From Oscillospiraceae bacterium (GTDB lineage Bacteria; Bacillota_A; Clostridia; Oscillospirales; Ruminococcaceae), in contig JAFSHE010000075.1 of NCBI GenBank assembly GCA_017440445.1, positions 1 through 16,310 of the forward strand: 16,310 nt of DNA, read 5' to 3'. Shown one piece after another: positions 980-10,456 of the stretch. Below the pieces are notes generated by a model. The model was not told the origin of the DNA, searched no databases, and saw only the letters and a list, made by a program, of their open reading frames with translations. A program made the translations under genes and the position numbers. Positions within the stretch are counted from its first letter, which is position 1. Every line of letters begins with the position of its first letter.

Positions 980-1157
980 AGAAAAGCTGGATTACTCCAG
1001 AAATTACAAGACCAGAAAATGCTGCAAACGCTTTTGTTATCGCATTTGTAAGGGTTTTGGCATATAACAACGCAACTGGAAAAATAAAGAAAATATTTCC
1101 AAAAACCTCTTGAAATAAAATCCAGTATATGGTAATATTAGATTGTAAAAAATACAT
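966..1157 (-). pseudogene. Possible VanZ-like membrane protein remnant
   Basis: This 63-codon open frame encodes a hydrophobic peptide with two likely membrane segments. The segments FGNIFFIFPVALL and SGVIQLFLS resemble the VanZ family signature, which has a GNI-x-x-F-x-P turn followed by a helix ending in S-x-x-IE-x-x-Q. The conserved Glu is absent and the frame stops right after the second helix, so only a short piece would remain. No ribosome binding site precedes the ATG, which lies next to the spo0A Shine-Dalgarno sequence on the other strand. A decayed gene is the simplest reading. A chance hydrophobic frame in AT-rich DNA is the alternative. Confidence 0.3.
1110..1138 (+). promoter_or_regulatory. 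Proximal spo0A promoter
   Basis: TTGAAA (1110-1115) and TAATAT (1133-1138) are separated by 17 bp, and a TG one base before the -10 box makes it an extended -10. Transcription would start near 1145, about 26 bases before the ATG at 1171. This is a vegetative-type promoter; I found no clear sigma-H motif. Confidence 0.65.
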
Positions 1158-1170
1158 TGGAGGTCTTAAA

Positions 1171-1947
1171 ATGACGAATCAGATCAAAGTACTTATCGGC
1201 AACGACACAGCAGAATGTGGAATGGCATGGGCAGGGGCGATGAAATCAGCGGGGATGTATGCGATAACCCGCCGCTGCGATGGAAACTCCGTTCTTAACT
1301 CCATAAAGTCCGAAGCACCTGATGTGGCGGTGCTGGAGGAGAAGATGCCCTTCTGCGATGCTATTGAGGTCATCCGCAGACTTAAGGCGGAAAAGAAATA
1401 TGTTCCCGCTGTGATAATCGTCACCAACATCAGCAATCCTCAGCTGGAGCGTGATGCGATGAATGCGGGAGCAGCGTGTGTTCTTGTGAAGCCAGTTGAT
1501 CCGCAATTCCTTGTCAGCAGGATATCACAGCTTTGCGGTTTCGAGAGCGAGCCTACCGCAGTGCCCGATGAAACCGACCTTGAGTGTGCTGTTACCGAGA
1601 TAATCCATCAGGTGGGAATTCCTGCACATATCAAGGGCTACCACTATCTTCGCACAGCGATAATGCTCTCCGTCAACAATGATGAGATGATAAACTGCAT
1701 AACAAAGCTGCTGTATCCCACAGTGGCTAAAAGATATCAGACCACATCCTCACGTGTTGAAAGAGCCATCCGCCATGCGATAGAGATAGCGTGGGACAGG
1801 GGAGATATAGATGTGCTGACAAGAATATTCTCCTACACAGTTCACACCTCCCGCGGAAAGCCTACAAACTCCGAGTTTATTGCACTTATCGCTGACCATC
1901 TGCGCCTGAAGTTCAAGTCGAGGACCGCAGTTCCTGCTTACAGATAA
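1171..1947 (+). CDS. spo0A: Stage 0 sporulation protein A homologue with altered phosphoacceptor site
   Basis: The 258-residue product has the two-domain layout of Spo0A, the master regulator of sporulation entry: a receiver (about 5-122) and the Spo0A-specific DNA-binding domain (about 138-248). The latter keeps GIPAHIKGYHYLR and the recognition-helix region SRVERAIRHAIEIAW, which are diagnostic. The receiver is unusual. Aligned with B. subtilis Spo0A, the phosphorylated Asp56 is Glu56 (codon GAG at 1336-1338), and the first acidic-pocket Asp is Asn11 next to Asp12. Switch Thr85 and Lys107 are kept. The ATG at 1171 follows GGAGG (1159-1163) by 7 bases; an upstream in-frame ATG at 1129 lacks such a site and lies inside the promoter. 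The Glu suggests a protein that is not controlled by the phosphorelay, perhaps constitutively semi-active. Identity as the Spo0A family is near certain; the activity state is inference. Confidence 0.93.
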   Translation: MTNQIKVLIGNDTAECGMAWAGAMKSAGMYAITRRCDGNSVLNSIKSEAPDVAVLEEKMPFCDAIEVIRRLKAEKKYVPAVIIVTNISNPQLERDAMNAGAACVLVKPVDPQFLVSRISQLCGFESEPTAVPDETDLECAVTEIIHQVGIPAHIKGYHYLRTAIMLSVNNDEMINCITKLLYPTVAKRYQTTSSRVERAIRHAIEIAWDRGDIDVLTRIFSYTVHTSRGKPTNSEFIALIADHLRLKFKSRTAVPAYR

Positions 1948-4952: not shown

Positions 4953-5213
4953 ATGGAAATAGTAAAAGTATCGGCTCATTCTGTTCCGAAGTCGGTTGCG
5001 GGAGCTATTGCGGCGGTAGTACGTGAAAACGGAGAGGTCGAGGTACAGGCAGTGGGCGCAGGCGCAGCTAATCAGGCTGTAAAGTCCATAGCTATTGCAA
5101 GAAGCTACATGGCTCTTGTGGGAGTTGACCTCATCTGTATCCCTGCATTTGCAACGGTGGAGATAGACGGTGACGAGCGCACTGCGATGAAGTTCATCGT
5201 ACAGCCACGCTAA
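4953..5213 (+). CDS. spoVS: Stage V sporulation protein S
   Basis: The 86-residue product is nearly collinear with SpoVS, a small Alba-like protein needed in B. subtilis for progress through spore coat and septation stages. It keeps the hallmark segments VGAGAANQAVKSIAIAR (about 34-50) and DLICIPAF (about 60-67) and the end KFIVQPR. The ATG at 4953 gives the family's MEIVKVSA start. A GTG at 4944 would add three residues and, if the leader hairpin forms, would be better spaced from AAAGGA at 4904. The ribosome site just before the ATG is weak (AACGGTGA). SpoVS also occurs in non-sporulating lineages, so it does not prove sporulation. It is followed by a strong terminator. Confidence 0.95.
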   Translation: MEIVKVSAHSVPKSVAGAIAAVVRENGEVEVQAVGAGAANQAVKSIAIARSYMALVGVDLICIPAFATVEIDGDERTAMKFIVQPR

Positions 5214-6652: not shown

Positions 6653-8257
6653 ATGAAAAAGATATCCGTGATATGCATAGCGGCCGTATTGCTTCTTTCA
6701 GGCTGCGCAAACAGGGAGCTTTCCTCGCAGGGGACGGCTGCGGGTTCGGAGAATTCCTCAAACGCAATAGCTCAGACTGAGATTGCGTGGGAGCAGGATG
6801 GTACAGTGCCTGACATCGCTTATGAGGGTACATCCCCCGCAGAGCCTGTCGTTCTCACACAGCCGCCCGTGCTTCGCATCGAGGCGGTGGACGAGATGAC
6901 AGCCTCAGTTTCCATGATGACTGTCGGCGGCTACATGTGGGAGTACGATAAGGACGGAAACGGCACCATGACAGCGGTGATAGCTGACAGTATGGGTCCT
7001 GTGGCGGCAGCAGAGAAAGGAATGGTCAAGGTCATTCTTGACCCGTCAAAGCTTATTAAAGACCCGAAGATACTGCTGACAAACGGTAGTAAGATAACAT
7101 CGACAGAGCTTTACGCAGGTGATGAAAAGACCTCCCTTGAATACGGTGAGGATGGCAGTATAAAGCTTCCCGCTGACAGCGAGGGCGTATGCTGCGTCAG
7201 CGTGGGATTTCCTCAGGGTAATTGCGAGTATTACTTCCTTGTAGGCAAGGATACAAATAAGGATACTGCAAGTGGTAGTACGGAGTCCGTGCCTCCCTCT
7301 GAGGGGGAAACAACTCCCGCATACGTCCCGAGCGCAGTAAGCACCTCGGTATGTCATTACCCGACTGCAGAGATGATGACCGAAAGCTACTCCCCCGAGG
7401 AAGCAGAGCCTGTTATGATATGGCGGCATACCAACTACGCATGGGAGCCTGTTGATTTCGGCGTAGTGTATGACAGCAGGGGATATATATACAAGTTTGA
7501 CTTCAGCGGAGAGGATATCTCTGAGGATGAGCTTGTACATCGTGCGGAGGAGCTTATGGACACTGAGCCGGCAGGCTTTGACAGTGAGCTTGTCAGATGT
7601 AACGAGCTTATCCCGCTTGTTGACGAGTCCGCCGAAGTAAAAGAGGAGCATGCAGGATATGATATCGGTCAGGAAACGCTTTATATTATCCGTGACGGAA
7701 AGCTCATTGAGATAAGCTCCGAGGGCGACTGGAATGTTACGCTCCGTGACGAGGCGGCACAGAAGATATACGAGATAGTAAAGTCTGTAATGGTACCGCA
7801 TGATCAGGCAGGTAACGCAGAGCATGAGGTTGTATTTCCCGATGGCGGCAGCGGCACGGTTATGTATACTTATCCCTCCTGCATCTACCGCACTGACGGA
7901 TATGTTGACGGAATGGAGTATCCGCAGACTATTACGATAACAACGGCAGAGCAGCTTGAGGAGTACATCTCCACCATGCGTGAGTATTATCAGGTGGGAA
8001 ACATGAACGTTTCCGATTATGACGATGGCTTCTTTGCGGAAAAGGCGCTTGTCATGGCTGTTATAGAGGAGAGCAGTGGCTCGGTATCACACAAGATAAA
8101 TGGAATTACCGAGGATAATAAGATAATCGTTGAGCGCACAGTGCCTATGGTCGGCACCTGCGACATGGCAGAGTACAACATAGTGGTCGAGATTCCCGCT
8201 GAAAAGGCTTACGAGGATTTTGAAGTAGTATTTTCTACTGTATTCCTCGGTGAATGA
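6653..8257 (+). CDS. Large lipoprotein with PrcB-like C-terminal domain
   Basis: The 534-residue protein starts with a lipoprotein signal peptide (KK, hydrophobic core, lipobox LSGC with Cys18) after a strong GGAGGA. It would be anchored to the outer face of the membrane. Residues 70-200 form a beta-rich region with GGYMWEYDKDGNG (92-104), like a module seen in other clostridial lipoproteins. A Ser/Thr/Pro/Glu linker (about 203-228) follows, then a domain containing WRHTNYAW and GVVYDSRGYIYKFDFSG (about 257-285). The last 110 residues (about 425-534), with DDGFFAEKALVMAVIEESSGS, resemble the PrcB_C domain (protease complex subunit). The combination suggests an envelope sensor or inhibitor, but no function is known. 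It has no co-directional partner downstream. Lipoprotein call is secure; PrcB likeness is moderate. Confidence 0.8.
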   Translation: MKKISVICIAAVLLLSGCANRELSSQGTAAGSENSSNAIAQTEIAWEQDGTVPDIAYEGTSPAEPVVLTQPPVLRIEAVDEMTASVSMMTVGGYMWEYDKDGNGTMTAVIADSMGPVAAAEKGMVKVILDPSKLIKDPKILLTNGSKITSTELYAGDEKTSLEYGEDGSIKLPADSEGVCCVSVGFPQGNCEYYFLVGKDTNKDTASGSTESVPPSEGETTPAYVPSAVSTSVCHYPTAEMMTESYSPEEAEPVMIWRHTNYAWEPVDFGVVYDSRGYIYKFDFSGEDISEDELVHRAEELMDTEPAGFDSELVRCNELIPLVDESAEVKEEHAGYDIGQETLYIIRDGKLIEISSEGDWNVTLRDEAAQKIYEIVKSVMVPHDQAGNAEHEVVFPDGGSGTVMYTYPSCIYRTDGYVDGMEYPQTITITTAEQLEEYISTMREYYQVGNMNVSDYDDGFFAEKALVMAVIEESSGSVSHKINGITEDNKIIVERTVPMVGTCDMAEYNIVVEIPAEKAYEDFEVVFSTVFLGE

Positions 8258-8270
8258 CATATAAAACATA

Positions 8271-8303
8271 AACGGTATCATCGCAAAGGATGATACCGTT
8301 TTT
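8271..8303. terminator. Bidirectional terminator between lipoprotein and sensor kinase genes
   Basis: A perfect 12-bp stem (8271-8282 with 8289-8300, arm AACGGTATCATC) has a 6-base loop. Ts follow on the plus strand (to 8303). On the minus strand the complement of the upstream A-rich DNA gives a T-rich tail. It terminates both converging transcripts; the kinase stop codon lies at 8305-8307. Confidence 0.9.
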
Positions 8304-8304
8304 G

Positions 8305-9777
8305 TTATTGTTTTGGCTTTTTTATTCTGACGGATGTCTTGGTCGGCTCAAGGTCGGGGGCTGCAAGAGGGTCGGGAGCCTCAAACCAGAAGGTGCTTCC
8401 CTTGCCCACCTCGCTGTCTACACCGTACTGAAATCCATGCATCTCCAATACGCTTTTTACGATGGATAGACCTATTCCGCTGCCCATCTTTGCACGCTTG
8501 TGGGTCTTGTTGCGCTCGCTGACCTTGTAGTATCTGTCCCAGATATAGGGAAGATATTCGGGTGCGATACCGTCACCGTGGTCGGTGACCTCAAAACGGA
8601 CAGTCTTGTTTATTGTCCTGTAAAGCCGCACTATCACAGTGTTGTCGTCGCCTGTGTAGGTCACAGCATTGTTGATGAGGTTATACACCACCTGCTCTAG
8701 CTTTACCTTGTCAGCATTTATCAGTATGCTGTCGCCTGCGTGAAGCTCGATGATAACTCCGTCGTTTTCCCGAAGGATATCAAAGCGTGATACCACACCG
8801 CCAAGCCTTTCTCCGAAGTTGAAGGTCTCAAGAGAAAGCTCCGCAACTCCCGCCTGAAGCTTTGACAGGTCGAGGATATCGTTTACCAGTGAGGAAAGAC
8901 GGTCAGTTTCGTCAATAATGACCTTGAGGTGACGTTCACGCTTTTCGGGATTATCGCCCGACAGGTCACGTATCATCTCCGCATAAGCCTTTATCATGGT
9001 AAGTGGCGTGCGCAGGTCGTGGGAGATGTTTGACATAAGCTCCTTACGCAGGTCGTCGGATTTCGCTATCTCCTTTGAAGCTACCTCCAGCGTGCCTGTA
9101 AGCTGTTTTATCTCTGCAAAGTCACGCTCTGACGCCTTGTATTCAAATCTGCCCTGAGGCAGCTCCTTTGCAAAGCGGTTTATCCGTATGATAGGGCTGG
9201 ATATCTTCTGTGAAAACAGCAGCGATACAAAGAAGGTCAGTATTATTATGACTACCGACACGAACAGGAATTGTCGCTGGAATATAGCTACCGTGGTTCC
9301 CAGCGGCTGAAGATATGAGCATATAAAGATGTATGCGTCGGGGTCGTCCCTTGTGCCGCCTGCCATGGAGCAGACCATCAGCACGGAGTTGTTTTCACGC
9401 TCGTCACGGAAGCGGCGGTATACTATGCCTGTATCGGAGTTTCTTATCTCCTCCTGATATCCAAGCTTTGAAACGTTTGTGATTGCAAGGCCGCCGCCCA
9501 TGTTGTTGAAGGTAACGGACCTGTTCATATCAGGGAAATATATCTCGATATACAGCTTGTTGTCAACGGAAACACGGTCTGTTATGGCGAGAGCATCCTT
9601 GTTGTACCAGTTAAGCTGTATCGTCATAAGCGACTGGCTTATCTCCTCTATCTTCATCCATTCGTAGAAGGAGGGGAAAAGCACCACCAGAAACAGGTAA
9701 GTAAACACCAGCATCGCCGCCACGATAGTTTCAAACCTCAGCCATATCTGGAAGGTTATGCTGCGGAAAAGGTTCAT
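8305..9777 (-). CDS. Membrane sensor histidine kinase
   Basis: The 490-residue protein is a classical two-component sensor. A first membrane helix (about 17-36), an extracellular domain (37-168) and a second helix (about 170-188) precede a HAMP-like linker. The HisKA box is NISHDLRTPLTMI with phospho-accepting His253. The ATPase part has the N box (NLINNA, Asn366 and Asn370), the G1 box DHGDGI (399-404) and the G2 box GSGIGL (432-437). All catalytic motifs are intact. The start was set at 9777, where the ATG follows GAGGT and lies one base from the regulator stop; an in-frame ATG ten codons upstream lies inside the regulator gene. The tail of about 25 residues is basic and Pro/Lys-rich. It forms an operon with the preceding regulator, its obvious partner. 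The signal is unknown. Confidence 0.93.
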   Translation of the reverse strand: MNLFRSITFQIWLRFETIVAAMLVFTYLFLVVLFPSFYEWMKIEEISQSLMTIQLNWYNKDALAITDRVSVDNKLYIEIYFPDMNRSVTFNNMGGGLAITNVSKLGYQEEIRNSDTGIVYRRFRDERENNSVLMVCSMAGGTRDDPDAYIFICSYLQPLGTTVAIFQRQFLFVSVVIIILTFFVSLLFSQKISSPIIRINRFAKELPQGRFEYKASERDFAEIKQLTGTLEVASKEIAKSDDLRKELMSNISHDLRTPLTMIKAYAEMIRDLSGDNPEKRERHLKVIIDETDRLSSLVNDILDLSKLQAGVAELSLETFNFGERLGGVVSRFDILRENDGVIIELHAGDSILINADKVKLEQVVYNLINNAVTYTGDDNTVIVRLYRTINKTVRFEVTDHGDGIAPEYLPYIWDRYYKVSERNKTHKRAKMGSGIGLSIVKSVLEMHGFQYGVDSEVGKGSTFWFEAPDPLAAPDLEPTKTSVRIKKPKQ

Positions 9778-9778
9778 C

Positions 9779-10456
9779 TTATACCTCGAACTTGTAGCCC
9801 ATTCCACGCAGGGTCACAACAAATTTGCGATAAGGACCCAGGTTGTTGCGCAGCATCTTGATATGGGTGTCGATAGTGCGGTCGTCACCGAAGAAATCAT
9901 AGCCCCATACCTCCTCGAGAAGGCGGTTTCGTGTAAGGGCGATGTTCTTGTTGCGCACAAGATAGAACAGCAGGTCGTATTCCTTGGGTGTAAGGCTTAC
10001 CTTTTCACCGTCGATGAACACATCCCGTGAGGTGAAGTTTATCTCAAGTCCCTCAAATGTTGCGGTCTCTGCCATGGGCTGTGCCGCAGCGCCTGCGGAA
10101 TTACGCTTGACGATGGCATTTATCCTCGCCATTACCTCCTTGGGTGAGAATGGCTTTACAACGTAGTCGTCTATACCCAGCTCAAACCCGAATAGCTTGT
10201 CGTATTCCTCGCCACGGGCGGAAAGCATCAGCACAGGCACGTTCTTCTGCTTGCGTATCTCCTTGCAGGCGGAGTATCCGTCAAGCTTCGGCATCATCAC
10301 ATCCATGATTATTATGTCGTAGTCGTTTGCTTTGGACATTTCCACTGCCTGCATGCCGTCGCATGCCTCGTCCACCTGGTGACCTTCAAACTCCGCATAT
10401 TCACGTATTACCTCACGGATATGTTCTTCATCGTCCACTACCAGTATTCTATACAT
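9779..10456 (-). CDS. OmpR/PhoB-family response regulator
   Basis: The 225-residue regulator has a receiver domain (about 3-115) with acidic pair Asp8-Asp9, phosphoacceptor Asp52 in IIIMDVMMPKLDGY, Ser/Thr switch in MLSARGE and the KPFSP lysine. A winged-helix DNA-binding domain (about 127-225) follows, with LTPKEYDLL, a recognition-helix region EVWGYDFFGDDRTIDTHI and the wing LRGMGYKF. The ATG at 10456 is preceded by AAGGAG at 7 bases. The kinase starts one base after its stop. Upstream DNA holds a palindrome and a direct repeat that may be its own binding site. All key residues are present, so normal phosphotransfer is expected. Targets are unknown. Confidence 0.95.
   Translation of the reverse strand: MYRILVVDDEEHIREVIREYAEFEGHQVDEACDGMQAVEMSKANDYDIIIMDVMMPKLDGYSACKEIRKQKNVPVLMLSARGEEYDKLFGFELGIDDYVVKPFSPKEVMARINAIVKRNSAGAAAQPMAETATFEGLEINFTSRDVFIDGEKVSLTPKEYDLLFYLVRNKNIALTRNRLLEEVWGYDFFGDDRTIDTHIKMLRNNLGPYRKFVVTLRGMGYKFEV

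Follow-up and report, generated by a model that had tools for sequence, protein, structure and literature searches.

Spo0A with an aspartate-less receiver in a Ruminococcaceae lineage that retains sporulation genes

The gene at positions 1171–1947 of the forward strand of the window (the whole analysed stretch of 16,310 nucleotides from an Oscillospiraceae bacterium of the Ruminococcaceae) encodes, to judge from its sequence, an orthologous sporulation regulator Spo0A with an aspartate-less receiver (pseudo-receiver). We lean towards a Spo0A that works independently of phosphorylation and is controlled by its amount and possibly by a new input to the receiver. On our best reading, this phosphorylation-independent Spo0A still runs sporulation. 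Spo0A phosphorylated at a conserved Asp is described as the trigger common to all endospore formers in the available part of PMC11210211. In the titles, abstract openings and accessible passages of the open-access literature searched, no natural aspartate-less Spo0A is described.

Identity and active site of the protein

The protein comprises 258 aa, with a receiver domain at approximately residues 5–124, a linker and a Spo0A_C DNA-binding domain at residues 141–244. The mechanically listed open reading frame opens at ATG 1129. A ribosome-binding site, GGAGG (1159–1163, + strand), precedes ATG 1171, and a start at the latter codon gives the N terminus MTNQIKVLIG..., which is the same as in relatives. 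ATG is the first codon of the gene in 31 relatives, whose genes were trimmed to the nearest Met at this position. In Pfam profile searches the Spo0A_C domain (PF08769) scored 152.4 bits against a curated cut-off of 25 and the receiver domain (PF00072) 51.1 bits, and the full-length equivalog model TIGR02875 gave 248.1 bits (cut-off 200), which confirms the assignment to Spo0A made in an earlier sequence-only reading of this DNA. Among solved structures, the DNA-binding domains of Spo0A in 1lq1 and 1fc3 match it best. An AlphaFold2 model calculated from a 46-row alignment contains a complete receiver fold of five strands and helices (mean pLDDT 85.7) and was matched by Foldseek to Spo0A and other receivers; because of the pTM of 0.49 the domain arrangement in this model is uncertain.

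Alignment with solved Spo0A receivers places Glu56 (codon GAG, 1336–1338, + strand) in the column of the phosphorylated Asp, and the position of the first acidic-pocket Asp is taken by Asn11 (codon AAC, 1201–1203, + strand). Asp12, Thr85 and Lys107 are retained. The same reading had already named Glu56, Asn11 and the retention of Thr85 and Lys107, and the alignment agrees with it in each of these residues. Its proposal that the normal phosphoacceptor is lost also holds, Glu56 being present instead, and no alternative Asp was found at the acceptor position in the alignments with solved receivers and relatives. The complete DD, D, T/S, K set of canonical response regulators is absent from the window protein, which has N11, D12, E56, T85 and K107. 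Absent, too, is the phosphorylatable Asp, a functional hallmark of Spo0A that the curated models do not demand. A receiver fold without phospho-Asp (PF00072 match, modelled fold and Glu56) places the domain among the aspartate-less receivers.

Like canonical Spo0A from B. subtilis and C. difficile, the window protein combines a receiver with Spo0A_C, its gene has an upstream 0A-box-like site, and its DNA-binding domain is 53–58% identical to the solved chains 1lq1 and 1fc3. Unlike canonical Spo0A, it has Glu for the phosphorylated Asp and Asn for one Asp of the acidic pocket. With aspartate-less receivers (RitR, ChxR and others) it shares the exchange of Asp by Glu, which is the commonest change among them, the retained Lys and Ser/Thr and the receiver fold. 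These receivers, however, keep an acidic residue 1 in 65% and have an acidic residue 2 in 29% of cases according to the available part of PMC4395418, whereas the window protein has Asn as residue 1, and all members (127/127) of the clade described below have Asp as residue 2.

With Glu56 and Asn11, the protein lacks both its Asp acceptor and one of the two residues of the Mg2+-binding pair; normal His-Asp transfer should therefore fail. Some active-site chemistry may remain, given that the window protein still has Thr85 and Lys107. The statement in the earlier reading that normal phosphorelay control is removed was loosely worded, as Ruminococcaceae are described without a Bacillus-type phosphorelay in the available text of PMC11210211.

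Residue 56 among relatives and its evolution

The clade comprises 127 distinct full-length relatives with at least 70% identity, genome loci included. Residue 56 is Glu in 118, Asp in seven and Asn in two of these sequences; residue 11 is Asn in 115, Ser in nine and Asp in three (Asn or Ser in 124/127). The protein relatives were taken as the best 120 of 8000 scored: P0001–P0100, all of them roughly 70% identical or better across the query, have Glu in 92, Asp in six and Asn in two cases, and P0101–P0120 have Asp in 14 and Glu in six. Glu56 is a trait of the clade and not a private mutation of the window gene. It is not absolutely fixed, since the closest protein among the matches listed (P0001, 96% identical) has Asp56. 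Seven of the 127 clade members, P0001 included, would be phosphorylatable in principle because of their Asp56.

Codon 56 is GAG in 17, GAA in 14 and GAT in one of 32 clade genes, the window gene included. Hence, the GAG codon of the window and the GAG/GAA codons of the clade speak against a sequencing error. A sequencing or assembly artefact behind Glu56 has a negligible probability, because this residue occurs in most of the 127 distinct sequences, which come from several sources, and is encoded by two synonymous codons in the clade.

Outside the clade, residue 56 is Asp in 97, Glu in 17, Asn in three and Ser, Gly and Pro in one each of 120 distinct sequences, which are a non-random draw since the search that retrieved them started from a Glu56 protein. 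A second set is likewise non-random: 354 family genomes had a match, and a single gene was read from each of 130 that were among the best scorers against the window (L196 was dropped for its wrong frame). Outside the clade, 16 of its 124 usable rows are non-Asp, with Glu in 13, Asn in one and a deleted acceptor in two. Receivers without Asp made up 2.0% of one sample, as far as the available text of PMC12632262 goes, and 4% in an earlier survey that the accessible part of PMC12548384 quotes. Two Spo0A proteins of the family, L210 and L222 (genomes G357 and G316), miss three alignment positions at the phosphoacceptor loop, and a second Spo0A_C is present in both genomes.

The direction of the changes was analysed on a clade tree of 139 rows (clade and outgroups), which was calculated with columns 11 and 56 removed and rooted on an outgroup row. 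A Fitch down-pass assigned Glu to the base of the clade (127 tips), and residue 56 changes seven times over the whole tree. With Glu at the base, some Asp56 forms of the clade are probably returns from Glu, in which Asn11 is still present. For the 12-row subclade of the window the Fitch state is ambiguous (Glu or Asp), and the sister sequence P0001 has Asp. A wider tree was built with FastTree from 343 distinct sequences, leaving out columns 11, 12 and 56. It requires 31 changes between Asp and non-Asp and 24 between Glu and Asp, and its supported branches yield 16 independent Glu/Asp pairs. Therefore, the acceptor was altered many times in the family, possibly in both directions. A coupling of Glu56 to the loss of an acidic-pocket residue was considered (Fisher p = 0.007 for the 205 outgroup sequences carrying either Glu or Asp) and rejected, as independent pairs on the tree gave a median p of 0.5, which is not significant.

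Between the window and clade members, dN/dS was 0.05–0.09 for the receiver (six of eight pairs computable) and 0.01–0.02 for the DNA-binding domain (five of eight pairs computable), values that are rough because dS is near or past saturation. Averaged over alignment columns, the entropy within the clade amounts to 0.62 for the receiver, 0.21 for the DNA-binding domain and 1.66 for the linker, and 35 of 120 receiver positions are invariant among the 127 clade members. The receiver is under purifying selection and is not decaying.

Two further explanations of Glu56 have to be weighed against these data. Glu56 could be a true phosphomimic, which would lock the receiver in a phospho-Asp-like state, render Spo0A constitutively active and leave control wholly to spo0A expression. 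Glu is by far the commonest residue at position 56 in the clade; according to the available part of PMC4395418 it is also the most frequent substitute at this site in aspartate-less receivers (26%) and is able to confer constitutive activity. The accessible text of PMC12548384 points to CmrT of C. difficile (Glu53) as an example: like the window protein, it is a transcriptional response regulator with a natural Glu acceptor, and it is inferred there to be constitutive and phosphate-free. CmrT differs from the window Spo0A by its OmpR-type output, by having no role as a sporulation master regulator and by a partner, CmrR, that keeps Asp. However, some clade members have Asp or Asn as residue 56 and still the same Asn11, and Asn is not a phosphomimic. 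In addition, the 2015 study, in its available part, names Spo0A as a protein in which the exchange of Asp by Glu alone is insufficient, citing Green 1991 (PMC4395418). The residue three positions before Lys107, which is relevant for Y/T coupling, does not fit a phosphomimic either, being Val in the window and in 51/130 clade rows; it is aromatic in 76/130. The alignment columns had hinted at a clade-wide loss of the aromatic residue, and this idea was discarded after the ungapped count from Lys107 gave those 76 aromatic rows. That Asp, Glu and Asn replace one another at residue 56 speaks against a simple phosphomimic, which we consider rather unlikely; a strict phosphomimic is less likely than an amount-controlled, phosphorylation-independent Spo0A.

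Alternatively, Asp56 may be dispensable, with Asp, Glu and Asn nearly interchangeable at this position and the receiver using another input (a ligand, a partner or another modification). This explanation agrees with the seven changes at residue 56, with Asp in the sister sequence P0001, with the purifying selection on the receiver and with its 35 invariant positions. On the other hand, residue 56 stays acidic in 125/127 clade members, and the ligand or partner is a postulate. We regard it as a possibility of somewhat less than even weight.

Copy number of spo0A and sporulation genes

The nearest genus was represented by 43 genomes reached through loci, and the copy counts refer to these genomes of relatives. 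A profile search detected Spo0A_C in 37/43 genomes. The protein query also found 37/43, one gene being split over two contigs. The six genomes without any Spo0A probably have draft gaps. A second canonical spo0A in the genome, which the sequence-only reading had set against its own proposal, was looked for in relatives only, and none of the 43 genomes of the nearest genus has two Spo0A_C domains in the profile search. Among these genomes are G411 and G413, in which Spo0A is 93% identical to that of the window and has Glu56. If the source genome did contain a second canonical Spo0A, the window copy would be an accessory paralogue. Elsewhere in the family more than one Spo0A_C match in a genome is common: at least two were present in 19/32 genomes searched, with a second match over the cut-off in 18/32 (G064 and G275 by weak partial matches only). 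For the source genome a second canonical Spo0A is very improbable, given the result for the nearest genus including G411 and G413. In another lineage, the near-single-contig genome G350 carries spo0A on a 2.94 Mb contig (genome size 2.9 Mb); it has one Spo0A_C domain, Glu56 and SpoIVA.

Four to six Spo0A matches per genome, some of them possibly from duplicate contigs, were observed in G243, G399, G327, G042 and G375, which suggests an expansion of paralogues. Spo0A_C also occurs in short frames of 130–140 aa without space for a receiver (G163:C5, G308:C64 and C138, G154:C38). These frames resemble the receiver-less phage Spo0A described in the available part of PMC10294663. Such truncated, phage-borne Spo0A resembles the window protein in having an output without a phosphorylatable receiver; it lacks the receiver altogether, whereas Spo0A of the window type keeps a constrained one.

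The sequence-only reading had also suggested that the lineage may have lost sporulation and kept Spo0A for other regulation. Spo0A has further roles in clostridia, and these non-sporulation roles are in line with this idea. So are the matches to SpoIIE, which remain under the curated cut-off in all 43 genomes of the genus; in 39/43 they reach E 1e-61 or better, and the weaker matches in the remaining genomes resemble other phosphatases. However, SpoIVA was found in 41/43, SpoIIR in 40/43, GPR in 39/43 (38 over the cut-off), SASP in 41/43 and SpoIVB in 38/43 genomes of the nearest genus. G411 and G413 both contain SpoIVA, SpoIIR, a SpoIIE-like protein, GPR and SASP; SpoIVB was found in G413 and not in G411. 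In 14 control genomes SpoIIR, GPR, SASP and SpoIVB each exceeded the cut-off in B. subtilis only, and SpoIVA matched both B. subtilis and Thermotoga maritima, just one of them over the cut-off. Outside the genus, SpoIVA is present in 15/16 genomes with a non-Asp residue 56 (absent from G001) and in 16/16 genomes with Asp56. Since the five spore-specific families are kept in 38–41/43 genomes, a loss of sporulation is not supported, and we consider it improbable. Thus, the identity and the residue changes given in the earlier reading stand and the proposed loss does not. Gene content argues against it, and these cells presumably do sporulate. A cultured relative on the scale of the family, Ruminococcus bromii, was long called non-sporing and was shown to sporulate, as reported in the available part of PMC5814915. 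The window itself contains, near spo0A, a SpoVS gene (4953–5213; PF04232, 121.8 bits), which adjoins a gene for a YmdB-like phosphoesterase.

Upstream region and proposed control of Spo0A

An exact copy of TTGTCGAA, which we take to be a 0A box, is located on the reverse strand at positions 973–980, 198 bases upstream of the spo0A start codon. The second of the two exact copies in the window falls within a gene, at 2026; when at most one mismatch is allowed, the motif is not more frequent in the window than in shuffles. Upstream of spo0A it is present in 17/32 clade genes, the window included (shuffled mean 0.5, maximum 3), and its 7-mer core in 20/30 clade upstream regions (shuffled mean 1.6, maximum 7); these counts overstate independence because nothing but the base composition was preserved in the shuffles and the genes share ancestry. 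Of the 17 copies, 16 are on the same strand as that of the window, at −198 to −255, and their flanks have diverged. The conserved 0A-box-like site fits, and suggests, an autoregulation of spo0A. Conservation of predicted 0A boxes was noted only for TTGTCGAA upstream of spo0A itself. No exact TTGTCGAA was found in 30 regions upstream of spoIIE, so that no target promoter beyond that of spo0A is supported. In 19/30 of the spoIIE regions TTGTCAAA is present; its interpretation as 0A boxes was rejected, as the context was judged to be a sigma-A promoter on the reverse strand (TTTGACA and TATGATACAAT, some 17 bases apart).

A motif scan revealed a sigma-70-type promoter-like site, TTGAAA-17-TAATAT, at 1110–1138 (+ strand), one of seven such sites in 600–2100 (mean of shuffles 4.4). 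At this site ATATGGTA is common to 20/30 clade upstream regions. A partly palindromic conserved element similar to GCGATTGTTATCGCATTTG lies further upstream, at approximately 1023–1050. It also lies upstream of spo0A in L117, L118, L124, L127, L130, L131, L137, L138 and others. A loose pattern matches 17/30 clade regions, and in 14 of these the match is at −135 to −173 relative to the start codon. The element may serve as an input site through which spo0A expression is controlled.

Unlike canonical Spo0A, that of the five genus loci L282–L286 has no SpoIVB-like match in its vicinity. Many of the outgroup loci (L001–L080) have such a match just upstream of spo0A; it was found in 34/85 loci searched, a rough count since the query set contained unrelated ORFs too. 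In the genus spo0A seems to have left its usual SpoIVB neighbour. Except for solute-binding-protein matches in L284 and L286 and weak kinase/regulator paralogues in L282 (22–30% identity), no other window genes are situated beside spo0A in these five loci. In several members of the genus spoIIR lies within approximately 1.3 kb of spo0A (L285, about 7774–9249; G193, G345, G109, G416, G417 and G418). A histidine kinase and an OmpR/PhoB-type response regulator form a pair at 8305–10456 in the window, with no sign of an action on Spo0A.

For the phosphorylation-independent Spo0A that we favour, the output in the genus would be set without phosphorylation of Asp. The amount of Spo0A would determine it, through a promoter with the upstream 0A-box-like site, and a partner or ligand now acting on the receiver would be a second possible input. 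Spo0A of the window type would then not be phosphorylated, would have an active-like default conformation and would be controlled by dosage. CmrT of C. difficile supports this reading as a natural Glu receiver that probably acts without phosphate (PMC12548384). According to the available part of PMC4689505, constitutively active Spo0A turns on early sporulation genes in B. subtilis, and efficient sporulation needs a second condition; control by amount is thus possible, but in B. subtilis it was insufficient. A rewired control of sporulation in the lineage is plausible. More tentatively, and at slightly below even probability, we propose that the genus enters sporulation via Spo0A without phosphorylation control, with spo0A expression or a new receiver ligand as the input, and that losses of the acceptor are recurrent in the family.

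The presence of spo0A is used as a first sign of sporulation potential, as described in the available text of PMC11536998. Having spo0A does not imply control by kinases, which bears on such studies. If the reading of a lineage with spore genes and a single acceptor-less Spo0A is true, the trigger of sporulation can be moved, and the sporulation signal in uncultured clostridia would become testable with one protein.
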